A stretch of 64,000 bases of DNA from Micrococcus sp. EYE_212 (GTDB lineage Bacteria > Actinomycetota > Actinomycetes > Actinomycetales > Micrococcaceae). Below are positions 31,701 through 62,279 of this stretch, one piece after another. A model generated the notes under the pieces. The model was not told where the DNA came from. It did no database searches and worked only from the letters and a program-made list of their open reading frames with translations. The position numbers and the translations under genes were made by a program. Location: positions 248,001-312,000 of the forward strand of contig NZ_JAHXOZ010000001.1 in NCBI RefSeq assembly GCF_023147585.1, given 5' to 3'. Within the stretch, counting starts at the first letter, position 1. Each line of letters begins with the position of its first letter.

Positions 31701-31847
31701 GTCATCGCGGTGGAGCCGCTTCCCGGCCGGGCCGTCTTCGTCTCCCCCGATCACCCGGAGCCCGGCATCCCCGCTCAGCTGTCCTTCCCCAGCAGAGAGC
31801 CCGCCCGCGGACCCGCTGCGGTGTCCGGCCCCGCGTCTACGCTGTGA
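28728..31847 (+). CDS. EccC/EssC-like FtsK-SpoIIIE ATPase
   Basis: 1039 residues. Residues 1-150 look like an FHA-type N-terminal region (TGDLLLDDPTAPARPTRFAL). Two membrane helices follow at about 183-225. The FtsK/SpoIIIE motor domain has Walker A AGTTGSGKSDLLLSLL near residue 541, LLDFKGGASF and Walker B LVVAVDEL. A weaker C-terminal ATPase-like segment follows. IDFKGG-type and HTMSVETN segments are typical of type VII secretion motors rather than DNA translocases. No WXG100 substrate, EccB, EccD, EccE or mycosin gene is in the window. The gene is divergent from the Tad operon. ATG 28728 has GAGAGG seven bases upstream. Confidence 0.8.
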   Translation: MTWTVRLLGESGDDDVWVVSDLPADPARQDDEVRRRFPAGSLRRGRSASGALTYVVRPAGAGPARRAPGPELSILSEDGPDAGRIAPVSPAGVSAGRGTGDLLLDDPTAPARPTRFALAAAGLTVRRPGRSTPEQWNGLEPLLVGRCSLGTMRGPQRPLDPPREVAAAVVDLGSPPGEQAMLLPLLMAAGPIVIGLVLALTSGSGLFLLFGLMSVLTVGTMIGLQRRARREHARALRGRASELAARRSGQVPCPGQVTRAARSRSADRFGVSGQGQDAACVLRWGTGMGPFPLSRPEAARQWQEAVVVSQPALSTLADEGSITVTGARRPLDAAARWALFQLLRHAVAAGLTLTVTTPHGRECWWRGGAAARELHLGLPASDWVAPTRARWLEALGRADVAPPPSADPQRPVAEVRFSAEAEDPSVPSVPGDRLDLTARSLHHAGDGTTLADVEMTGISPATLTWWLLELADDVVGLGLLSGTTAAPPLRPPPQVGTLSAVDGVRAPVTTGDPARPAAGGPSATGGLWLDLAADGPHILVAGTTGSGKSDLLLSLLVGLSAHHPPAELAFILLDFKGGASFGHLAALPHTMSVETNHVGAASLRALSAISAELRRREALFAGLGVSDYPAFRRRRPDVALPRLVVAVDELQVLMDDHPDAGAVLQRLAATGRSLGFHLLLATQRATGAVSGDIRSNLGATIALRTATEQESWDLVGSRDAFRLDASRPGSAILARAGRAPVAFRASQWAVAAAEPVWRRAGEEAVPAATAASWEAVVEHVRDAYAQGCWPTPAPVVSPALPGVWAPDRSSRRGRDALALIDDASRARHVAWRWPHGSAGNTAWIAEAAGGRELILESVLDVAARGPGGVLVLDGSGETGHPGLPHGHTVLTPDGGDEAAQAAVTALDALADHGGTAVVTGWAGWAGLRVGETYRSFDEELHHWLGTQRGRRVRFAALGGRDLATSRLLLHLPHRFYVPAGTSGEHRLVWPKVIAVEPLPGRAVFVSPDHPEPGIPAQLSFPSREPARGPAAVSGPASTL
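31838..31843 (+). promoter_or_regulatory. -10 box TACGCT giving a leaderless hydrolase mRNA
   Basis: TACGCT overlaps the end of the EccC-like gene and ends seven bases before the ATG at 31851. Confidence 0.5.
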
Positions 31848-31850
31848 CCC

Positions 31851-32432
31851 ATGGCTCAGATCATCCTCTTCCACCACGCCCTCGGCCTCACGGACGGTGT
31901 CCGCGACCTCGCCGAGAAGATCGCCTCCGGCGGCCACCAGGTGCACACCCCGGACCTCTTCGACGGCGCCGTGTTCGGCACCCCGCAGGAGGGCATCGCG
32001 CACGTGGAGAGGCTCGGCGGCTTCGACCGGATCGCGCTCGAGGGCATGCGCGTGGCCGCGGAGTTCCCGTCCGCGTCCGTCGTCGCCGGTGTCTCGATGG
32101 GCGTGGTCCCCGCCCACAAGGCGGCTCAGACCGTGCCCGCCTTCCGCGCGTGCATCGACATCTCCGGGTTCGTCCCGCTCACCGCGTTCGCCCCTCTGTG
32201 GCAGCCCCACACGGCCCTGCAGGTGCACCTCGCCTCCGAGGACGCCTGGGTCAGGGACGAGGACCTGCCGCTGGCCCGCTCGATCGCCGCGACGGATGAG
32301 AATCCGGACGCCCCCGCGGTGCTCTTCGAGTACGAGAGCGCGGAGCACCTCTTCATGGACTCCTCCACCTCCGGCTACGACGCCGACCTCACGGACGTGG
32401 TGGTCCGCCGCATCCACGAGCTGTTGGCGTGA
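31851..32432 (+). CDS. Dienelactone hydrolase-family alpha/beta hydrolase
   Basis: 193 residues. The fold starts IILFHHALGLTDGV with the oxyanion region. The nucleophile elbow is VAGVSMGV (Gly-x-Ser-x-Gly, Ser near 83), whereas classical dienelactone hydrolases have Cys here. A late Asp precedes the probable catalytic His in SAEHLFMD. Substrate unknown. It overlaps the next gene by four bases (GTGA). Confidence 0.75.
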   Translation: MAQIILFHHALGLTDGVRDLAEKIASGGHQVHTPDLFDGAVFGTPQEGIAHVERLGGFDRIALEGMRVAAEFPSASVVAGVSMGVVPAHKAAQTVPAFRACIDISGFVPLTAFAPLWQPHTALQVHLASEDAWVRDEDLPLARSIAATDENPDAPAVLFEYESAEHLFMDSSTSGYDADLTDVVVRRIHELLA

Positions 32433-46533: not shown

Positions 46534-48630
46534 TCAGTCCTCCTCGGCGAGGCGCGCCAGCACGCCCCGCACCACCTGCCGGTCCGTGGTCCGCCAGAAG
46601 TCCGGCAGAGCGCTCGTGATGTAGCCGCCGTAGCGCTCGGTGGCCAGACGTGAGTCCAGCACGGCGACGACGCCGCGGTCCCCGACGGCGCGCACGAGGC
46701 GGCCGGCGCCCTGGGCCATGCGGACGGCGGCGTGCGTGGCCGACACCTTCATGAACCCGTTGCCGCCGTGCCGGGCGATGTCCCGCGTGCGCGCCTGGGA
46801 GAGCGGGTCGTCCGGGCGCGGGAACGGGATCCGGTCGATCACCACGAGGCGCAGCGAGGAGCCCGGCACGTCCACGCCCTGCCACAGGCTCATGGTCCCG
46901 AAGAGGGAGGCGTCCCGCTCCTCGGCGAACTGCCGGACGAGTGCGGAGAGGGTGGCATCGCCCTGGCACAGGATCGTCTGCGTCGGGCCCAGGCGGCGGC
47001 GCATCTCCGCCGCGGCGTCCTCGGCGGCCCGCCGGGAGGAGAACAGGCCGAGCGTGCCGCCGTTCGAGGCCTTCATGAGCTCCCCGAGCTCGTCGAGGGA
47101 CTCGGGGGAGGCCGTCCTCCCGGGACGCGGCAGGTGCCGGGCCACGTACAGCACGCCCTGGCGGGGATAGTCGAAGGGGCTGCCGACGTCGAGGGCGGTG
47201 TACGCGGGGGCGTCAGGCCCGGCGAGGCCGACGTCACCGGCCACCGAGTCGAACCGCCGCTCCCCCGTGCCCACGGTCAGCGTGGCGGAGGTGAGCACCG
47301 TGGTGGCCTTGCCGAAGAGCCCCTCACGCAGCTTGCCTGCCACCGAGATGGGGGCCACGTAGAGCTGCGGCGGGTCCTCCTCGTTGCCGGGCTGCCAGCC
47401 GACGCCGGGCTCGAAGTGCCCGGGCCGCGTGGCCCACAGGACCTCCGGGAAGTCGGCCTCGGGGCGCGCGGCGAGCATGCGCTCGGTGACCTCGAGGACC
47501 TCGACGAGGCGGGAGCGGGCCATCTGGTGGCCGCCGTCGCCGTCGGCCTCCTTGTCCTTGCTCTGGCCGAGGTCTGAGAAGCACTGCCGGGCGGCAGCGA
47601 GGACGGCGGTCAGCGCCTGCTCCTGCACCTCGTCCGGGCCGGTGGCGAGCAGCCCCGAGGGGGTGCCCGCGAAGGCGCGGTCCAGGGCGGCGCCGGCCTG
47701 CACGAGGTCCTCGACCGCCACCGAGGTGTGGCGCCGGACCGAGGTGGCGGCACCGTGCACGATCGAGCCGGAGAGCTGGCCCGTCACCGCGCCGGTGACG
47801 CGGTCCTGCAGCTCGTGCGCCTCGTCCACCACCACGGCGGAGTAGGCGGGGAGCACGGCGAGTCCCTCGAACGCGCTGATCGCGAGCATCGCGTGGTTGG
47901 TGACCACCACGTCGGCGTCCGCAGCGTCCGCGCGGGCGTGCTCCGAGAAGCACTCGTCCGCCATGGGGCAGCGGGACGCGCCGAGGCAGTCGACGGCCGA
48001 GACCGAGACCTGCCGCCAGGCGCGGTCCGTCACGGGGACCTCGAGGTCGTCGCGGTCGCCCGTCTCCGTCTCGTCCGCCCACGCACGCAGGTACATGACC
48101 TCCTTGCCCAGCAGCGACGACGGCCCTGAGGCCCCGTCCGAGGCGGAGCCGATCATGCCGCCGTCGTCGGCCACCGTGAAGAGGGCCTCCTCGCCCTCGT
48201 CCCCGGGATACCCGCCGTCCACCTTGTGCCGGCACAGGTAGTTGGAGCGCCCCTTGACGAGCGCGACGACGGGCTCGCGCGGCAGCTCCCCCTTCAGCGC
48301 CTCCACGAGGCGCGGGGCGTCCCGCTTCATGATCTGCGCCTGGAGGGCCAGGGTGGCCGTCGCGATCACGACGGGGTCCTCCTGGTCCATGGCGTGCTGC
48401 AGCGCCGGGATCAGGTAGGCCAGCGACTTGCCGGTGCCGGTCCCGGCCTGGACCAGCAGGTGCCGCCGCGACTCGAGGGCGCGCGCGACCTGCAGGACCA
48501 TCTCCTTCTGGCCCGCGCGCTCCTGGCCGCCCGTGGCCTCGACCACGGCGTCCAGGAGCCGCAGCGCCTCCCTCTCCCGATCCGTGCGGGGGGCCGAGAC
48601 GGCCCCCTCCGCGGCGTCCGCCCCGCTCAT
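46534..48630 (-). CDS. dinG: DinG/XPD-type ATP-dependent DNA helicase
   Basis: 698 residues, superfamily 2. Walker A is VQAGTGTGKSLAYLIPAL near residue 62 and the DEAH box VVVDEAHEL. Four cysteines between them (YLCRHK, CLGASRC, DEC) fit the iron-sulfur cluster site of DinG/XPD. Later motifs include LFGTMSLWQGVDVPG and AQGAGRLVRAVGDRG. It unwinds 5'-to-3', including R-loops and replication-blocking structures. Its ATG overlaps the hflX stop (ATGA), so it shares the hflX promoter. Confidence 0.9.
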   Translation of the reverse strand: MSGADAAEGAVSAPRTDREREALRLLDAVVEATGGQERAGQKEMVLQVARALESRRHLLVQAGTGTGKSLAYLIPALQHAMDQEDPVVIATATLALQAQIMKRDAPRLVEALKGELPREPVVALVKGRSNYLCRHKVDGGYPGDEGEEALFTVADDGGMIGSASDGASGPSSLLGKEVMYLRAWADETETGDRDDLEVPVTDRAWRQVSVSAVDCLGASRCPMADECFSEHARADAADADVVVTNHAMLAISAFEGLAVLPAYSAVVVDEAHELQDRVTGAVTGQLSGSIVHGAATSVRRHTSVAVEDLVQAGAALDRAFAGTPSGLLATGPDEVQEQALTAVLAAARQCFSDLGQSKDKEADGDGGHQMARSRLVEVLEVTERMLAARPEADFPEVLWATRPGHFEPGVGWQPGNEEDPPQLYVAPISVAGKLREGLFGKATTVLTSATLTVGTGERRFDSVAGDVGLAGPDAPAYTALDVGSPFDYPRQGVLYVARHLPRPGRTASPESLDELGELMKASNGGTLGLFSSRRAAEDAAAEMRRRLGPTQTILCQGDATLSALVRQFAEERDASLFGTMSLWQGVDVPGSSLRLVVIDRIPFPRPDDPLSQARTRDIARHGGNGFMKVSATHAAVRMAQGAGRLVRAVGDRGVVAVLDSRLATERYGGYITSALPDFWRTTDRQVVRGVLARLAEED

Positions 48631-50240
48631 GAGGCGTCGGAGTCCACGCGGTGCTCCGCGAGCTCGGCGGCGATGTCCTCGCGCACGAGGACGGTCAGGC
48701 GGGTGCCGCCCTCCTCATAGGCCTCGGCGAGGATCTCCGCGTCCGCGGAGTGCAGGCGCGAGACCACGTCGCCCCGCGTGAACGGGACGAGCAGCTCGAG
48801 GCGCACGCTGGGCCGTGGGATCGTGGCCGCGATGGCCTTCTCCAGCTCGTCGATGCCGGCGCCGGTGCGGGCCGAGACCACGACGGTGTGCGGCTCCTTC
48901 GAGCGGATGCGGGCGATGACCACGGGATCCGCCGCGTCCGCCTTGTTCAGCACGATGATCTCCGGGATGCGCTGCGCGTCCACCTCGGCCAGCACGCCGC
49001 GCACGGCGGCGATCTGCCCCTCGGGGTCCGGGTGCGCGCCGTCCACGACGTGGAGGATGACGTCCGCGTCCGCGACCTCCTCCAGGGTGGAGCGGAAGGC
49101 CTCCACGAGCTGCGTGGGAAGGTTGCGCACGAAGCCCACGGTGTCCGAGAGCGTGTAGCCGATGCCGTCCGGGGTCACGGCCTTGCGGACCGTGGGGTCC
49201 AGGGTGGCGAACAGCGCGTTCTCCACGAGCACCCCCGCGTGGGTGAGGCGGTTGAGCAGTGAGGACTTGCCCGCGTTGGTGTAGCCGGCGATGGCCACGG
49301 ACGGCACCCGATTGCGCCGGCGGTTGGCCCGCTTGGCCTCGCGCGCCGGCTTCATGGCGGAGATGTCCCGGCGCAGCTTGGCCATGCGCGTGCGGATGCG
49401 ACGGCGGTCCAGCTCGATCTTCGTCTCGCCAGGGCCGCGGGAGCCGATGCCCTCGCCGCCGGCCGCACGGCCGCCGGCCTGGCGCGACATGGACTCGCCC
49501 CAGCCGCGCAGGCGAGGCAGGAGGTACTCGAGCTGGGCCAGCTCGACCTGCGCGCGGCCCTCGCGGGACTTCGCGTGCTGCGCGAAGATGTCCAGGATCA
49601 GCGCGGTGCGGTCGATGACCTTGACCCGCACCACGTCCTCGAGCGCGCGGCGCTGGGACGGGGCGAGCTCGGAGTCCACCACCACGGTGTCCGCGCCGGA
49701 GAGGGCCACGATCTCCGCGAGCTCACGGGCCTTGCCCTTGCCGAGGAACGTGGCCGGGTCCGGGGTGGCGCGGCGCTGGATGACACCGTCCAGCACCTCC
49801 GAGCCCGCGGTCTCCGCGAGCGCGGCGAGCTCCTGGAGGGAGTTCTCGGCGTCCTCCGCGGTGCCCTCGGTCCACACGCCCGCCAGGACCACCCGCTCGA
49901 GGCGCAGCTGGCGGTACTCGACCTCGGACATGTCCTCGAGCTCCGTGGAGAGCCCGGCCACGCGGCGCAGGGAATGGCGCGCGGCCAGTTCGTCCTGGTC
50001 GCCGTCGAACTCGGTGTGCTCGTCCCCGCCCTCGGCGAGCGCGAGCGCGCGGCCCCCGACGACGGACGCCCGATCGCGCGTCTCGGAGGCCTGCTCGGAC
50101 GCGTCGTCCCCGCCGGACGCGCGGCGGGCGTCGTCGGCGGCGAGGATGCGGTCGATCACGGCCTGGATCTCGTCCTCGGATCCTGCCGCGGCGGCTCCCG
50201 GCCCGTTCTGGCCGGCGGTGTTCTGGTGCTCGTCAGTCAT
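48627..50240 (-). CDS. hflX: Ribosome-associated GTPase HflX
   Basis: 537 residues. The N-terminal HflX domain (EVLDGVIQRRATPDPATFLG, GKGKARELAEI) and a glycine-rich linker (GRAAGGEGIGSRGPGETKIE) precede the GTPase with G1 AGYTNAGKSSLLN, G3 DTVGF and G4 NKAD. A ~100-residue acidic N-terminal extension is present. It splits stalled ribosomes. AGAGGAGA lies four bases before ATG. The promoter at 50282-50308 is of the same type as the proximal recA promoter. Confidence 0.93.
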   Translation of the reverse strand: MTDEHQNTAGQNGPGAAAAGSEDEIQAVIDRILAADDARRASGGDDASEQASETRDRASVVGGRALALAEGGDEHTEFDGDQDELAARHSLRRVAGLSTELEDMSEVEYRQLRLERVVLAGVWTEGTAEDAENSLQELAALAETAGSEVLDGVIQRRATPDPATFLGKGKARELAEIVALSGADTVVVDSELAPSQRRALEDVVRVKVIDRTALILDIFAQHAKSREGRAQVELAQLEYLLPRLRGWGESMSRQAGGRAAGGEGIGSRGPGETKIELDRRRIRTRMAKLRRDISAMKPAREAKRANRRRNRVPSVAIAGYTNAGKSSLLNRLTHAGVLVENALFATLDPTVRKAVTPDGIGYTLSDTVGFVRNLPTQLVEAFRSTLEEVADADVILHVVDGAHPDPEGQIAAVRGVLAEVDAQRIPEIIVLNKADAADPVVIARIRSKEPHTVVVSARTGAGIDELEKAIAATIPRPSVRLELLVPFTRGDVVSRLHSADAEILAEAYEEGGTRLTVLVREDIAAELAEHRVDSDAS

Positions 50241-50281: not shown

Positions 50282-50304
50282 AGCGTAGTGGGTGGGGCGG
50301 ACGC
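50282..50304 (-). promoter_or_regulatory. Damage-type promoter of hflX-dinG (GCGTCCGCC-N8-TACGCT)
   Basis: Minus-strand GCGTCCGCC (50304-50296), eight bases, TACGCT (50287-50282). Predicted start near 50275, 35 bases before hflX. Same motif and spacing as the proximal recA promoter and the ftsK promoter. Confidence 0.6.
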
Positions 50305-54948: not shown

Positions 54949-54954
54949 ATTCTA
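54949..54954 (-). promoter_or_regulatory. -10 box TAGAAT giving a leaderless miaB mRNA
   Basis: Minus-strand TAGAAT, six bases (GGTCCG), then GTG 54942. The box overlaps the recX stop, so miaB-miaA can be expressed apart from recA-recX. Confidence 0.6.
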
Positions 54955-55869
54955 GGAGGCGTCCGCCTCGTGCTCCCCGAGGACCTCCGTGACCACCCCG
55001 AACGCGAGTCCGGGGGCGTAGCCCTTCCGACCGAGCATCCCGACGAGGCGGCGCACCGCCTTGTCCCGCTCGGCGCGGTTCTCCGGGGAGTCGGCCGGCG
55101 GCACCGTCTTCCCGTGCATCCGGCGGCGGGCGAGCTCGAGGGCGGCGGCGCGCTCGTCCTCCGGCTCGATGGCCTCGAGGGCCTCCTCGGCGACGTCCCG
55201 GTCCACGCCCTTCTCGTGCAGCTCCCGGCCGATGGCCCGGCGGGACAGGCCCCGGCCGCGGTGACGACTGCGCACCCACACCTCGGCGAAGGCGGCGTCG
55301 TCCACGAGCCGCACCTCCTCGAAGCGGTCGAGCACCTGCTCGATCAGCTCCGGCTCGGCCTCGCGCTCCGCGAGCTTGCGCTCGAGCTGGCCGCGCGAGC
55401 GCGGGCCCATCGCGAGCTGCCGCAGCACGACCTCGCGCGCGGCCTCCGCGCGCTCCCGGGGGTCCTCGGGCAGGGGCGCGGGCCCCGGCCGACGACGTCG
55501 GCGAGGACGCGCGGCCTCGTCCGACGCCTCGGCGCTGCGGCCCACGACGGACGGCTCAGGCTCCGGAGCGGGCGGGGACGAGGGCGCGGCGGCCTTCGGC
55601 GCGCGACGCTTCGTCGTGTCCGGCGCCGTCGTCGGGCCCGGAACCGTCCTCGCGCCGCTGGTCCACGGCAGCGGCATGACCCCGCCCGTGGTCGGCGCGG
55701 GGCTGGGCAGGTCGCTCGCCCGCGTGAGGAGCGCGCTCAGGTCCGCCGGCTCCGGAGGCGCCGGTTCCGCCGGCGAGGCCGCGGTAGGATCCAGCCCGGC
55801 CAGGTCGAGCCAGAGCCGGGCCACCTCGGAGTCCCGGGAGTCGTCGAACCCGGCGCCGTGCCCCGACAT
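54952..55869 (-). CDS. recX: RecX regulatory protein with long disordered N terminus
   Basis: 305 residues; the RecX three-helix repeats occupy about 135-300 ([59 protein letters not shown]). The first 130 residues are Ala/Pro-rich and basic at the end, roughly doubling the usual RecX size. It inhibits RecA filament growth. ATG overlaps the recA stop by one base. Confidence 0.88.
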
Positions 55870-56933
55870 CAGGCCTTGGTGTCACCCGCCACGGCCGCGA
55901 GGACCGGCGCCCCGTCCTCCTCGGCGGCCTCCGGGTCCACGCCGATGCCGAGCTTCGTGAGGATGCGCTGCTCGATCTCGAGGGCCAGGTCCGGGTTGTC
56001 CTTGAGGAACCGGCGGGCGTTCTCCTTGCCCTGGCCCAGCTGGTCCCCGTCGTACGTGAACCAGGCGCCGGACTTCTTGACGATGCCCTCCTCGACGCCC
56101 ATGTCGATCAGCCCACCCTCACGGGAGATGCCCACCCCGTAGAGGATGTCGAACTCGGCCTGCTTGAAGGGCGGGGCCATCTTGTTCTTCACGATCTTGA
56201 CGCGCGTGCGGTTGCCGACGGGGTTGCCGCCCTCCTTCAGCGTCTCGATGCGGCGCACGTCGATGCGCACGGAGGCGTAGAACTTGAGGGCCTTGCCGCC
56301 GGTGGTGGTCTCCGGGGAGCCGAAGAACACGCCGATCTTCTCGCGCAGCTGGTTGATGAAGATGGCGGTGGTCTTGGTCTGGTGCAGGCGGCCGGTGATC
56401 TTGCGCAGCGCCTGGGACATCAGGCGGGCCTGGAGACCCACGTGGGAGTCGCCCATCTCGCCCTCGATCTCCGCGCGCGGCGTCAGGGCCGCCACGGAGT
56501 CGATGACGACGATGTCCAGGGTGCCGGAGGAGACCAGCATGTCCATGATCTCAAGGGCCTGCTCGCCCGTGTCCGGCTGGCTGACCAGCAGCGCGTCCGT
56601 GTCCACGCCGAGCTTGCGGGCGTAGGCCGGGTCCAGCGCGTGCTCCGCGTCGATGAACGCCGCGATGCCGCCGTTGCGCTGGGCGTTGGCCACCGCGTGC
56701 AGGGCGAGCGTGGTCTTGCCCGAGGACTCCGGGCCATAGATCTCCACGACGCGCCCCCGCGGGAGGCCGCCGATGCCCAGGGCCACGTCCATGGCCACCG
56801 AGCCGGTCGGGATGACCTCCACCGGCGCCTGGGTCTGATCGCCCAGGCGCATGACGGAGCCCTTGCCGAACTGCTTGTCGATCTGGGCCAGTGCCGCCTC
56901 GAGGGCCTTCTCACGATCCGTCACGTTGCTCAT
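55869..56933 (-). CDS. recA: RecA recombinase
   Basis: 354 residues. Walker A is [13 protein letters not shown] near 67 and Walker [10 protein letters not shown]. The L1 and L2 DNA-binding loops ([32 protein letters not shown]) are intact, followed by an acidic C terminus. No intein. It drives homologous recombination and LexA cleavage. Two promoters are visible: a distal LexA-box promoter (57081-57113) and a proximal damage-type promoter (57001-57023). Confidence 0.98.
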
Positions 56934-57000
56934 CCTTCACCCCTTGATGTGGTCTGTGCTCGTGCGGGACTCTGCGACGCCCGCCTCGGCCATGTCAGTG

Positions 57001-57023
57001 ACACTACGAGGTGGGGCGGACAC
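57001..57023 (-). promoter_or_regulatory. Proximal, LexA-independent-type recA promoter (GTGTCCGCC-equivalent-N8-TAGTGT)
   Basis: Minus-strand GTGTCCGCC (57023-57015), eight bases, TAGTGT (57006-57001). Predicted start near 56994, 61 bases before recA. Spacing from the GTC element to TANNNT equals that of the mycobacterial RecA-NDp promoter (TTGTCRGTG-N8-TANNNT) recognised through PafBC, although the second half of the upstream element differs. Confidence 0.6.
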
Positions 57024-57080
57024 GTTAGGCGCGCACCCGGTCTGCTGTGCACGGGCCGGCGGCCCCTGCGGCTGTGCAGG

Positions 57081-57113
57081 ACTCTACCCCATGGATTCGA
57101 ACACGTGTTCGAA
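57081..57113 (-). promoter_or_regulatory. Distal SOS promoter of recA with perfect LexA box
   Basis: An 18-base perfect palindrome TTCGAACACGTGTTCGAA (57096-57113), a full match to CGAAC-N4-GTTCG, covers the -35 position of a -10 box TAGAGT (57086-57081). Start near 57074. Confidence 0.85.
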
Positions 57114-57137
57114 GCGGCGCCCCGACCCGCCGCAGGG

Positions 57138-57356
57138 TCAGCGTGTCGGTGGCACGTCCCGCCCGAGACGCCGTTCGGCGGGGATGTCGTTCAGCTCGCA
57201 GACGGCCCGCCACACGGCACGCGGATCCACGCCCGCGGACAGCGCCTCCCGCGCCGTGGCGTCCAGTCCCGGCAGGTGCAGGCTGTCCGCCTCGACCGCG
57301 GCGCGCGCGGCACCGAACTCGTCGTCCATCAGTCTCCAGAACTCGCTCACCCGCAC
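57138..57356 (-). CDS. DUF3046-family protein
   Basis: 72 residues. SEFWRLMDDEFG at the N terminus and AGVDPRAVWRAVCELNDIP are the family hallmarks. The function is unknown; it sits between clgR and recA in most actinobacteria. GTG 57356 has AGAGGAGG about six bases upstream; GTG 57350 is also possible. Confidence 0.8.
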   Translation of the reverse strand: MRVSEFWRLMDDEFGAARAAVEADSLHLPGLDATAREALSAGVDPRAVWRAVCELNDIPAERRLGRDVPPTR

Positions 57357-57439
57357 GGTGGCCCTCCTCTGCTCGTCACGGACTCCTCCTCGCGGGGCGC
57401 GGCCCCTCGCCCGGGGCCGGCCTCCCCCCGCATGCACAC

Positions 57440-57468
57440 GGGCGCCCCGCCGTGACGGCAGGGCGCCC
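57440..57468 (-). terminator. Terminator of clgR
   Basis: Arms GGGCGCCC (57440-57447, 57461-57468) plus an inner four-base pair set after one mismatch, with a three-base loop; 20 bases past the clgR stop. Confidence 0.6.
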
Positions 57469-57487
57469 AGAGGCGGAGCGGTGGGGA

Positions 57488-57802
57488 TCAGCGGCCGGCC
57501 AGGGAGCCCAGCTCCGCGGCGCCGGCCTCGCCCATGCCCTCGGGCACGGTGTCCGGGATGACCACGCCCTCCTGCTCGGCAAGGCGGTCCGAGACCTCGC
57601 GGAGCATGAAGGACAGGGGGACGTCGAGCGCCCCGCAGATGGAGGCCAGCAGCTCGGAGGAGGCCTCCTTCTGGCCGCGCTCCACCTCGGAGAGGTAGCC
57701 GAGGGAGACGCGGGCGTCGTGGGACACCTCGCGGAGCGTGCGGCCCTGCCGCTGGCGCACGTCACGCAGGACGTCGCCGATCTCGTGCCGGAGGACGGGC
57801 AT
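57488..57802 (-). CDS. clgR: ClgR-type Clp protease gene regulator (XRE/HTH)
   Basis: 104 residues. The helix-turn-helix block [20 protein letters not shown], followed by [20 protein letters not shown], is nearly invariant in ClgR. In actinobacteria ClgR activates clpP1P2, clpC and other proteolysis genes. ATG 57802 has AAGGAG six bases upstream; an in-frame ATG near 57898 would add about 32 residues. The SigR-type promoter at 57984-58009 places it under thiol-stress control. Confidence 0.9.
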
Positions 57803-57983
57803 GGTGCGCTCCTTGATGTCGGGGGTCTCCGCGCGGGGGCGAGGCTGCTCGCCGACCCAGCGGGTGATGCCGTTGGCATGGACGGGGTGTCGCATCATGT
57901 CTATCGCGTGCTCCTGGACTTTCGCTGAGGACGCCGGACGGGAGCCTGATCCCCCACGGCCGTCTTCTTGACTCGTTCCATTC

Positions 57984-58009
57984 AACCGGCTGGAGGCCGG
58001 GTTCATTCC
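57984..58009 (-). promoter_or_regulatory. SigR-type promoter for clgR (GGAAT-N18-GTT)
   Basis: Minus-strand GGAAT (58009-58005), exactly 18 bases, GTT (57986-57984). Perfect match to the consensus; start near 57976 and a leader of about 175 bases. It lies just after the cinA stop (58028). Confidence 0.68.
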
Positions 58010-58027
58010 CGCTCGGCCGCACCGCGC

Positions 58028-58522
58028 TCAGGAACCCCCGCGACGCTCCCCTGCGGTGGCGAGCCGCTCGAGGCACGCGACCACGGTCCGCCGGCGGATC
58101 GCGGCCCGGTCGCCCGGCAGGCGCAGCCCCCACGCCTCGGCCTGCTCCACGCCCGCCTCGTCCGTCCACGCCAGCGCGATGAACACGGTCCCCACCGGCT
58201 TGCCCTGATGGGGCTCCGGCCCGGCCACGCCGGTGGTCGCCACGCCGACGTCGGCGCCCAGCACCCGGCGCGCACCGCGCGCCATGGCCTCGGCCACCCC
58301 GGGATCCACGGCCCCGCGCTCGGCCAGCAGCGCCGCCTCGACGCCGAGCACCTCCGCCTTCACGCGGTTCTGGTACGCCACCACACCGCCCTGCAGGACG
58401 GCAGAGGCGCCCGGCACGTCCGCGAGGGTGGCGGCCACGAGGCCCGCGGTGAGCGACTCGGCGGTCGCGAGCGTCAGCTCGTCCCGGGCGAAGCGGGCGA
58501 CCACCTGCGCGGCCGTGCTCAT
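58028..58522 (-). CDS. cinA: CinA C-domain nicotinamide-nucleotide amidase (PncC)
   Basis: 164 residues, the stand-alone C-terminal CinA domain. LATAESLTAGLVAATLADVPGAS, GGVVAYQNRVKAEVLGV, and ATTGVAGPEPHQGKPVGTVFIAL match the family. It deamidates NMN to NaMN in pyridine nucleotide recycling; its gene is often near recA. ATG overlaps the pgsA stop (ATGA). Confidence 0.9.
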   Translation of the reverse strand: MSTAAQVVARFARDELTLATAESLTAGLVAATLADVPGASAVLQGGVVAYQNRVKAEVLGVEAALLAERGAVDPGVAEAMARGARRVLGADVGVATTGVAGPEPHQGKPVGTVFIALAWTDEAGVEQAEAWGLRLPGDRAAIRRRTVVACLERLATAGERRGGS

Positions 58523-59148
58523 GCGGCGGTCCGGCCCGCGAGCGCGTCCCGGCGGAGCGCGGCGGCGTCGCGGACGTACTCCACGCCGGTGACCACCGTC
58601 AGCGCGGTGGCCACGCCGATCACGGTCCAGCCCAGCCACGGCCACCAGCCGCCCACCAGGGCGCCCAGCGGCATGAGCAGCAGGCCGATGCCCGCCGCCT
58701 GCAGCACGGTCTTCAGCTTGCCGCCGCGGCCGGCCGGCATGACGCCGTACCGGATCACCACGAAGCGCATGAGGGTGATGCCCCATTCACGCACGAGGAT
58801 CACGATCGTCACCCACCACCACAGCTCGCCCAGGAGGGAGAAGACCACGAGCGCGGCCCCCGTGAGCAGCTTGTCCGCGATCGGGTCCGCGATCTTCCCG
58901 AAGTCCGTGATCAGCCCGCGCGCGCGGGCGATGTCGCCGTCGAGCTTGTCCGTGTACATGGCCGCCGCGAACAGCCCGAAGGCCACCCAGCGCGCCGTGA
59001 GCGAGTCCTGGCCCCACGGCCCGCCCGCCCACAGCGCCCACACGAAGAAGGGGACCATCAGGATCCGCACGCTCGTGAGGATGTTCGGCAGGTTCCAGGC
59101 CGACGGCCGCTCCCCCGCTCGGCCCTCGGCCGTCCGCTCCGTGCTCAT
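58519..59148 (-). CDS. pgsA: CDP-diacylglycerol-glycerol-3-phosphate 3-phosphatidyltransferase
   Basis: 209-residue membrane enzyme with about six helices. The CDP-alcohol phosphotransferase signature D-G-x2-A-R-x8-G-x3-D-x3-D is complete in [25 protein letters not shown]. Makes phosphatidylglycerol phosphate. ATG 59148 overlaps the ftsK stop (ATGA). Confidence 0.92.
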
Positions 59149-62100
59149 CTGCCCGTCAGCTCCCATGCGTCCTCGGATTCCCCCTCGTCCTCCCCATCGT
59201 CCCAGGCCTGGGCCTGCGGACGGGAGTCGAGGTCCTCGGCCACCAGGTCACGCGGTGCCGCGGACGACGACGGCGCAGGCGCCGGAGCAGCCGCCGCCGG
59301 AGCGGTGTCCCCCGAGATCGCGGCGAGCACCTCGGCCACCTCGTCGGGCTTGACCAGCACGTCGCGCGCCTTCGACCCCTCGGAGGGGCCGACGACGCCG
59401 CGGGACTCCATGAGGTCCATGAGGCGGCCGGCCTTCGCGAAGCCCACGCGGAGCTTGCGCTGCAGCATGGAGGTCGAGCCGAACTGGGTGGTCACCACGA
59501 GCTCGACCGCCTGCAGGAGCAGGTCCAGATCGTCGCCGATGTCCTCGTCGATGACCTTCTCGGTCTTCTCCGGCACCACGTCGTCCCGGTACTGCACCTG
59601 CATCTGGGCCTTCACGTGCTCCACGACCGCGTGGATCTCGGACTCGTTCACCCACGCGCCCTGCACGCGCATGGGCTTCGACTTGCCCATGGGCAGGAAG
59701 AGCGCGTCGCCCTGGCCCAGGAGCTTCTCGGCGCCGGGCTGGTCGAGCACCACGCGGGAGTCCGTGACGGAGGACGTCGCGAACGCCATGCGGGAGGGCA
59801 CGTTGGCCTTGATCAGGCCGGTGACGACGTCCACGGAGGGGCGCTGGGTGGCGAGCACCAGGTGGATGCCGGCGGCGCGCGCGAGCTGGGTGATGCGCAC
59901 GATCGAGTCCTCGACGTCCCGCGGGGCGACCATCATGAGGTCCGCGAGCTCGTCCACGATCACCAGCAGGTACGGGTACGGCCGGAGGACGCGCTTGGAG
60001 TCCGGCGGCAGCTTCACCTGCCCCGCGCGCACCGCCTTGTTGAAGTCGTCCACGTGCTTGAAGCCGAACGCCGCGAGGTCGTCGTAGCGGGTGTCCATCT
60101 CCTTCACCACCCACTGGAGGGCCTCGGCGGCCTTCTTGGGGTTCGTGATGATGGGCGTCACGAGGTGCGGGACGCCCTCGTAGGCCGTGAGCTCCACGCG
60201 CTTGGGGTCGACCATGACCATGCGGACCTCGTCCGGGGTGGCCCGCATGAGGATCGAGGTGATCATCGAGTTCACGAACGAGGACTTGCCCGCGCCGGTG
60301 GCGCCGGCGACGAGCATGTGCGGCATCTTCGCGAGGTTGGCCACCACGTAGCCGCCCTCCACGTCCTTGCCGACGCCCATGACCATCGGGTGGTCGGTGC
60401 GGTGCGCGGCCTGCGAGCGCAGGACGTCGCCGAGCACCACCACCTCCTTGTCCGGGTTGGGGATCTCGATGCCGATGGCGCGCTTGCCGGGGATGGGGCT
60501 GAGGATGCGCACGTCGGAGGAGGCCACCGCGTAGGCGATGTTCTTCTCGAGCGCCGTGACCTTCTCCACCTTGGTGCCGGGGGCGACCTCGACCTCGTAG
60601 CGCGTGACGGTGGGGCCGCGGGAGAAGCCGGTGACCTGCGCGTCCACCTTGAACTCGGTGAACGTGGTGGTCAGCGCGGCGACGACGCGGTCGTTGGCCT
60701 CGGAGCGCTCCTTCGGCTGCGGGCCAGCGGGCAGCAGGTCCGACTGGGGCAGCGTGTACGCGGCGTCCCCGCCGAGCTCGGCCTGCCGGCCCCGGGCCGG
60801 AGCGGCGGTCATGGGCGGCACGGGGGCCGGCGTGCTCACCGCCGGCACCGGGGCAGGCACGGCCGACGCCGACTCCTCCTCGGGCTCGGCCGCCCCTTCC
60901 ACAGGCTGCGTCGGCTCCTCCGCCTCGTCGTCCGGCGTGGCGGCGTGACGGGCGCGGGCGTGCTCGCGGACCCGCTCGAGGGCCCGGTCGGCGGCGGTGG
61001 GGCGCTTGACCCCCGGGGGAAGCACCGGGGCCGCGTCCTCGTCCACCCAGGGGTCGAACGACTCGGCGGTGGAGTCGCCGCGGGCCGCGGGAGCGGCCAG
61101 GTGCTCCTCCGCGTCGAACACGCCCTGCTGGCCCCGCGCGGGACGGCGGGGGGCGGGCGCGGCGGCGCGCGGCTCGAGCACGAGCGTGGCGTCCTCCTCC
61201 GTGGCCTCCGCGGCCTCCGCGGTCCCGGCGGCGTGGGAGCCGGCCCCGGCCGCGGAGTCCAGGATCACGGGAGAGTCGTAGGCGGCGCTCTCGTGGCTGC
61301 GTTCGGATGCGGCGTCCCGGCCGCGGTCACGCCGCCCGAAGAGGCGGGCGAACAGGCCCGGGCGGGGACGCGCGGAGTCCTCCGCGGCGTGGCTGCCCAC
61401 GGCGTCGAGGTAGGACTGGTCGTGGTCGGGGTGGGTGCGCGCGGGCTCCGCGGACTCCTCCCCGGCGGCGCGCCGCTCGCGGCGTGCGTCCCGGCGCTCG
61501 GCGCGGCGGGCCGAGGCGCCCTCGGGGTCCTGGCCGGTGAGCCAGTCGTACGCGCCCGTGATCCGTTGCGGGATCGAGCCCAGCGGGGTGGCGGTGAGGA
61601 CGAGCAGGGAGAAGAAGGCGAGGGCGGCCATGAGCACCCACACGGGGACGGCCGTCAGGAGCGAGGCGAGCGGGACGGTCGCGAGGTAGCCGACCATGCC
61701 GCCGGCGTGCAGCACGTCCTCGAAGGACTCTGCGGCCGAGGGCAGCCCGCCGGCCAGGTGGGCGAGGCCGCTGCCCGCCACCGTGGCCATGAGCAGGCCG
61801 ATGATGATGCGGCCGTTGGCGCGCAGCTCCTGGGGCGTGCGGAAGCACCGCACCGCCACCACGAGCAGGGCGAGCGGCAGCAGGAAGGCGAACCATCCCA
61901 CGGTGCCGCCCACCACGCGGTGGACCACCTCGCCGAAGCCCGGCGTCTCCCGCAGGCCCCACCACTCCACCGAGGCGATGACCGCGGCGACGATCAGCAG
62001 GAGCAGGCCCGTGCCGTCCCGGCGTTCGTCGCGCGGGATGCGCACGTCACGGCCGAGCTTGCGGAAGAGCGCGCCCACGGGGGCCGCCACTCCCATCCAC

Positions 62101-62249
62101 GCCGCGCGCAGGGCGCGGACAGGGGCGGGGGGCTGATCGGGGGCAGCGGCGGTCGCGCCCTTCCCGGCGGAGGCCCGGGCGGCGGCGGAGCCGGCGCGGG
62201 TCTTCGACGAGGAGGACGACGACCGCGGGGGGGAAGTGCGGGTCGCCAT
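59145..62249 (-). CDS. ftsK: DNA translocase FtsK
   Basis: 1034 residues. Four membrane helices lie within about 70-230. A long acidic/Ala-Pro linker runs to about 500, followed by the motor with Walker [18 protein letters not shown], Walker [14 protein letters not shown] and a complete C-terminal gamma winged helix ([19 protein letters not shown]) for KOPS reading and XerCD activation. It moves the terminus region through the division septum. ATG 62249 is chosen because a -10 box ends seven bases before it. Confidence 0.95.
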
Positions 62250-62256
62250 GCCCTCC

Positions 62257-62279
62257 ACGGTACCGCCCGGGGCGGACGC
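62257..62279 (-). promoter_or_regulatory. Damage-type, leaderless ftsK promoter (GCGTCCGCC-N8-TACCGT)
   Basis: Minus-strand GCGTCCGCC (62279-62271), eight bases, TACCGT (62262-62257), then seven bases to ATG 62249. Same layout as the proximal recA and hflX promoters. Confidence 0.6.

Follow-up and report, generated by a model that had tools for sequence, protein, structure and literature searches.

What reads the element that precedes recA, the hflX-dinG pair and ftsK in Micrococcus sp. EYE_212? These three transcription units lie on the minus strand of a 64,000-nucleotide stretch of the genome (hereafter the window; contig NZ_JAHXOZ010000001.1, positions 248,001 to 312,000, 73% G+C). A preliminary description of this DNA had noted ahead of each of them the same nine-base element, ending in GTCCGCC, at the same spacing from a TANNNT box, and we confirmed all three elements with their coordinates, strand, letters and eight-base (N8) gap (Table 1). 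PafBC is the main known damage-response activator in mycobacteria, and we consider it very probable that the window elements are PafBC-dependent promoters, in the genus's own variant of the mycobacterial RecA-NDp promoter. We favor this reading because orthologous sites stand before recA, PafBC is present in the genome, the element is enriched at promoter-like positions, and PafB and the element change together. PafBC binding, damage induction, the start sites and activation by single-stranded DNA (ssDNA) are predicted properties of these promoters.

The window holds three copies of GTCCGCC-N8-TANNNT. In 100 dinucleotide shuffles, the mean was 0.05 and three were never reached. The preliminary description had proposed that the spaced motif would be enriched upstream of genes in a genome scan, and this is what we find: the own genome (2.54 Mb in 40 contigs) has 10 matches against 1 for a control in which the pattern is read backwards, and eleven genomes of the genus have 79 against 9. 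Base composition, genome size and the relatives of RecA (Arthrobacter, 87%) suggest Micrococcus as this genus. At six of the ten own-genome sites, an ATG or GTG opening a long reading frame stands 6-7 bases past TANNNT. The same geometry recurs at 41 of 63 genus sites, whereas about 5% would be expected from base composition (63 of the 79 sites were read; the other 16 are eight from the same-species genome G008 and eight recA or hflX orthologues). It looks like that of the -10 box of leaderless transcripts. A chance likeness of three G+C-rich upstream stretches is scarcely credible against the shuffles, the genus-wide counts and the start-codon positions, even though L006, one of the ten own-genome matches, falls within a long reading frame and is itself probably due to chance.

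Widening the pattern to GTCNG, which leaves three element bases free, and anchoring it to the start codon gave 152 matches against 8 in the control for GTCNG-N10-TANNNT-N6-RTG (N6-form totals being summary counts) and 137 against 2 for the N7 form in the eleven genomes. Replacing GTC by CTC in the N6 form left 0 matches against 13 in the own genome and 4 against 25 in the congener G002. GTC is followed directly by C at 111 of the 137 N7-form sites, and positions 8-9 of the element are mixed (GG 42, CC 29, GC 25, CG 14); therefore, GTCCGCC is one spelling of GTCCG[GC][GC] in the window genus. The GTCCGG spellings, which outnumber GTCCGCC, had been overlooked, as had a fourth site of this wider class on the plus strand of the window. 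At all four window sites, GTC is followed by C and then G rather than by a purine and G, so none reads TGTCRG; the preceding base is T at recA and the fourth site and C at hflX and ftsK. The eight-base gap to TANNNT is kept at the window elements. The CC noted directly after the element holds for the first three window sites and was dropped from the motif because relatives do not keep it (GC or CC at recA sites, GA at one hflX site). Of 61 distinct leaderless GTCCG sites, 30 have a CG immediately ahead of the second element base. Separately, a TTAACG/TAGCG-like stretch often lies 5' of the elements (e.g., 57024-57031, minus strand), spaced from TANNNT as a -35 hexamer would be.

The mycobacterial RecA-NDp consensus is published as tTGTCRgtg-8 nt-TannnT (PMC5656591) or TGTC[G/A]G-N10-TA-N3-T, with the M. 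tuberculosis variants TGTCGG, TGTCAG and TGTCAC (PMC8151990), and a review extends such promoters to other Actinobacteria (PMC8223512). The suggestion that the window spacing from GTC to TANNNT equals that of RecA-NDp is borne out, including at orthologous recA sites: outside the genus, GTC-N12-TANNNT precedes recA in 53 of 57 loci scanned (one of them labelled a proteobacterial metagenome-assembled genome and one, L066, without upstream DNA; L069-L087 and L089-L092 were left out). Across family and genus, recA or PafBC was sought in 69 genomes, of which 66 were readable before recA (G038 offered no DNA upstream of recA, G032 and G059 no recA start). A GTC site stands before recA in 60 of these, as TGTC in 57, and two more genomes have TCTC. 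Among the 28 genera that have a site there, position 6 is only a purine in 20, only C in 5 and mixed in 3. Before the own recA stands GTGTCCGCC, the orthologous site with C in place of the purine; the congener G006 has GTGTCGGCG. Within the genus, the hflX site is found in eight and the ftsK site in seven of the ten genomes whose upstream region was seen. Two Microbacterium ftsK genes also carry sites, ATGTCGGGG and AAGTCGGGA, 6 bases before the start codon (L027 and L026, respectively).

The window elements share with RecA-NDp the place before recA, GTC with a G two bases on, the exact spacing and the direction, as well as a LexA-type box nearby at recA and PafBC in the genome. They differ at position 6, where C takes the place of the purine, at position 2, where C and T are equally frequent, and at positions 8-9, which read GG, CC, GC or CG; at many sites, a start codon also stands 6-7 bases past TANNNT. 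We file the element as a variant of RecA-NDp because C replaces the purine after TGTC or CGTC. The preliminary description had offered either a Micrococcaceae form of the RecA-NDp/PafBC promoter or another activator's site; the former is supported, but as a form of the genus and a few others rather than of the whole family. The SOS (LexA) box likewise lies before recA in the window, but it is a separate palindrome with no match at the other sites. As a side observation, the recA loci of Bifidobacterium and Alloscardovia (L061, L062, L063) have a LexA-type box, and a RecA-NDp-like site was not found there.

The own genome encodes one WYL protein, in which two WYL stretches, HTH_PafC and WCX lie in a single chain (Pfam) and whose best PDB match is 6SJ9, PafBC of Arthrobacter aurescens (156.7 bits over 664 residues); by these matches, it is a fused PafBC. 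A PafBC relative is found in all eleven genus genomes; in the family, 61 of 61 genomes gave at least some match, the weakest (G012) over short WYL stretches only. PMC6789036 describes the arginines R44 and R48 in the recognition helix of PafB as strictly conserved and facing outwards, where they might bind bases. Chain numbering of 6SJ9 places them in FGRMFERD, which in the window genome reads F-A-K-L-F-Q-R-D, so that Arg48 is kept and position 44 is Lys. Like 6SJ9, the window protein is a natural PafB-PafC fusion with two WYL domains and Arg48, and it differs in carrying Lys and Gln at positions 44 and 47, where 6SJ9 has Arg and Glu. A rule connecting residue 47 (acidic versus Q/S/T/A) with base 6 was considered and is not claimed, because its roughly three class changes yield only 2-3 independent pairs on the PafB tree, whose bootstrap had not settled; the raw table is nonetheless striking, with 35/4 versus 3/16 over 58 genomes (G012 and G022 gave no PafB helix) and 18/1 versus 1/4 at genus level.

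In mycobacteria, according to PMC11804915, ssDNA activates PafBC, the PafB helix-turn-helix engages the -26 motif and that of PafC meets region 4 of sigma-A, redirecting the housekeeping polymerase by sigma adaptation. By analogy, we infer the same machine in the window genus with a drifted -26 code. ssDNA-activated PafBC would be placed between sigma region 4 and the promoter, with the PafB helix-turn-helix reading the -26 element and sigma reading TANNNT, and transcription would begin about 7 bases downstream of TANNNT. Through this drift, the -26 element would have come to read [T/C]GTCCG instead of TGTCRG, in many cases directly preceded by CG (TTAACG/TAGCG-like). At many targets, translation would start at or beside the transcription start.

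On sequence evidence, the element is tied to PafBC most strongly by a natural swap. In two genomes, G001 and G010, PafB carries Trp at residue 48, where the other helices read have Arg. The recA elements of these genomes read TCTCGG (G001) and TCTCCG (G010), compared with TGTC or CGTC where Arg48 is present. The same change appears at three further promoters: radA, aligned on the preceding CG, has CGTCCG in G000, G005 and G007 and TCTCCG in G010; a DUF6504-type gene has TGTCCG in G002 and G003 and TCTCGG in G001; and sbcD has TGTCCG in the Arg48 sister G006 (where 10 of 15 TGTCNG sites were read) and TCTCGG in G001, in both cases 7 bases before the ATG. RadA (G000) and SbcD (G001) were confirmed by family search, the remaining orthologues were matched by their opening residues, and L236 is called DUF6504-like by its likeness to L138 alone, with no Pfam match. 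TCTC sites also precede a UvrD helicase gene (G001) and an FtsH-like gene (G010). A CG stands directly before TCTC at 10 of 21 sites in the Trp48 genomes versus 0 of 11 in three Arg48 genomes (Fisher 0.006), and leaderless GTCNG sites are few in G001 and G010 (7 and 1). That another activator, e.g., ClgR, reads the element is accordingly hard to credit: although one study, as told in PMC5656591, reported that ClgR recognizes the mycobacterial recA P1 region, the residue that co-varies with the element lies in the recognition helix of PafB, and mycobacterial chromatin immunoprecipitation tied PafBC to RecA-NDp, as told in PMC6789036. Separately, L239 (1200-1993, G001) contains two divergent TCTC-type sites about 50 bases apart, each after TTANCG, flanked by genes without a Pfam match.

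The own genome has 31 predicted sites, consisting of 28 leaderless ones, the hflX site, one before a response regulator gene (MtrA-like by eye) and the chance site. Start codons lie 41, 67 and 46 bases downstream of TANNNT at hflX, recA and the response regulator, respectively. Seven of the 31 sites precede uvrA, radA, ligA, dnaX, a Pol III epsilon-like gene, recA (via a short upstream frame) and ftsK, a repair-type share (including replication and segregation) with p of 3e-5, 7e-4 or 0.01 at assumed backgrounds of 3, 5 or 8%. The six leaderless GTCCGCC genes are ftsK and genes for an ABC transporter (by eye), a CAAX-protease-like protein, a ubiE/menG-type methyltransferase, an NYN-like protein (by eye, no Pfam match) and a rapZ-like protein (by eye). 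Elsewhere in the genus, GTCCGCC sites precede genes for uvrA, uvrB, a methyladenine glycosylase, an exonuclease III-like protein, a DUF6504 protein and an NAD kinase, as found by family search of ten proteins picked from the 63 sites for their repair-like appearance; L129 proved diacylglycerol-kinase-like, and L116 had no Pfam family match.

Several observations weigh against the PafBC reading. None of the other 24 own-genome sites stands before a repair, replication or segregation gene (the genes there include, several by eye, RNase PH, porphobilinogen synthase, cystathionine beta-synthase, TreY, an M18 aminopeptidase and ABC transporters), and the repair share looks high against a background that is itself assumed. 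The predicted set is therefore not one damage response only, which qualifies the earlier suggestion of a single such response. Beyond the genus, the sites at hflX and ftsK are mostly missing, and 4 of the 66 family genomes have neither a GTC nor a TCTC site before recA, two of those genera having normal-reading PafB helices. G001 and G010 are sisters on the PafB tree (99/88), and Arg48Trp therefore counts as a single event. In these two genomes, TCTCNG totals are near control (G001 9 vs 6, G010 12 vs 9), and leaderless CTCNG in the N6 form shows no enrichment (1 and 3 matches), the G010 assembly being 91% complete with 6% contamination. At canonical spacing, an hflX site was found in neither genome, nor an ftsK site in G001; by these counts, the target set of the Trp48 genomes is small or their element looser.

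If GTCCG instead generally strengthened housekeeping-sigma promoters of the genus, as a spacer contact without PafBC, while recA keeps a lookalike ancestral site, this would accommodate the mostly non-repair genes downstream and the many sites, whose number varies by species (0 to 25 GTCCGCC matches per genus genome). We nevertheless judge it improbable, since the RecA-NDp spacing and the recA orthology are kept and the change before recA, radA, sbcD and the DUF6504-like gene in the Trp48 genomes would be needless if the element were independent of PafB. Within the PafBC reading, we lean slightly towards a stepwise rewriting of specificity, in which a purine at base 6 would first have given way to C, with a large target set that is mostly leaderless and reaches past repair, and Arg48Trp would then have been accompanied by G to C at base 3 in the surviving damage promoters (recA, radA, sbcD, DUF6504-like). 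If so, one recognition-helix residue sets the code of the damage promoters, and natural variants make it possible to assign which bases a sigma-adapting activator reads.

As far as the passages on RecA-NDp show, the element letters have been published for mycobacteria only. Among the matches listed, no title or abstract opening concerned this genus's promoter code or natural changes of Arg48; subscription papers, Gamulin 2004 among them, lay outside this scope, and an earlier description is possible. With a drifted code, searches with the mycobacterial consensus will miss targets in the window genus. With Arg48Trp paired to G to C, nature provides a ready test for matching residues to the bases that they read in sigma adaptation, and start codons 6-7 bases past TANNNT make for directly testable transcription starts.

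Table 1. Predicted promoter elements and associated genes in the window.
Feature	Position	Strand	Remarks
recA promoter element, GTGTCCGCC-N8-TAGTGT	57001..57023	-	-10-like TANNNT at 57001-57006
hflX-dinG promoter element, GCGTCCGCC-N8-TACGCT	50282..50304	-	41 bases ahead of hflX ATG (50240)
ftsK promoter element, GCGTCCGCC-N8-TACCGT	62257..62279	-	7 bases ahead of ATG 62249
Fourth class member, GTGTCCGGC-N8-TACGCT	31821..31843	+	7 bases ahead of ATG 31851; also in the own-genome match list
recA	55869..56933	-	From reading frames; followed by recX, 54952-55869 (RecX domains, Pfam)
LexA-type box, TCGAACACGTGTTCGA, palindrome	57097..57112		Upstream of recA; sole match in window
hflX (48627-50240) and overlapping DinG-type helicase gene (46534-48630)	46534..50240	-	Pfam: GTP-binding GTPase domains; Helicase_C_2/DEAD
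ftsK	59145..62249	-	FtsK domains by Pfam; start reassigned, probably ATG 62249
Dienelactone-hydrolase-like gene	31851-32432	+	Label by eye

The ftsK gene probably starts at ATG 62249 and not at GTG 62258, because the GTG falls within the TANNNT box and the ATG lies 7 bases after it. The LexA-type box, which had been overlooked, stands 74 bases upstream of the recA element, and such a box is also found ahead of recA in the eight genus loci inspected; a strict-pattern search of the whole window returned the recA match alone and none at hflX, ftsK or the fourth site. Having this box, recA is probably under both damage systems, LexA and PafBC. An 18-codon frame (56937-56993, minus strand) opens with an ATG lying 7 bases past the TANNNT of recA and stops 3 bases ahead of the recA ATG; hence, the recA transcript may start with a leaderless leader peptide. 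By eye, the ATG of this frame and its opening, GAGGCGGGC, are absent in G003, G004 and G007 and present in G002, G005 and G008.

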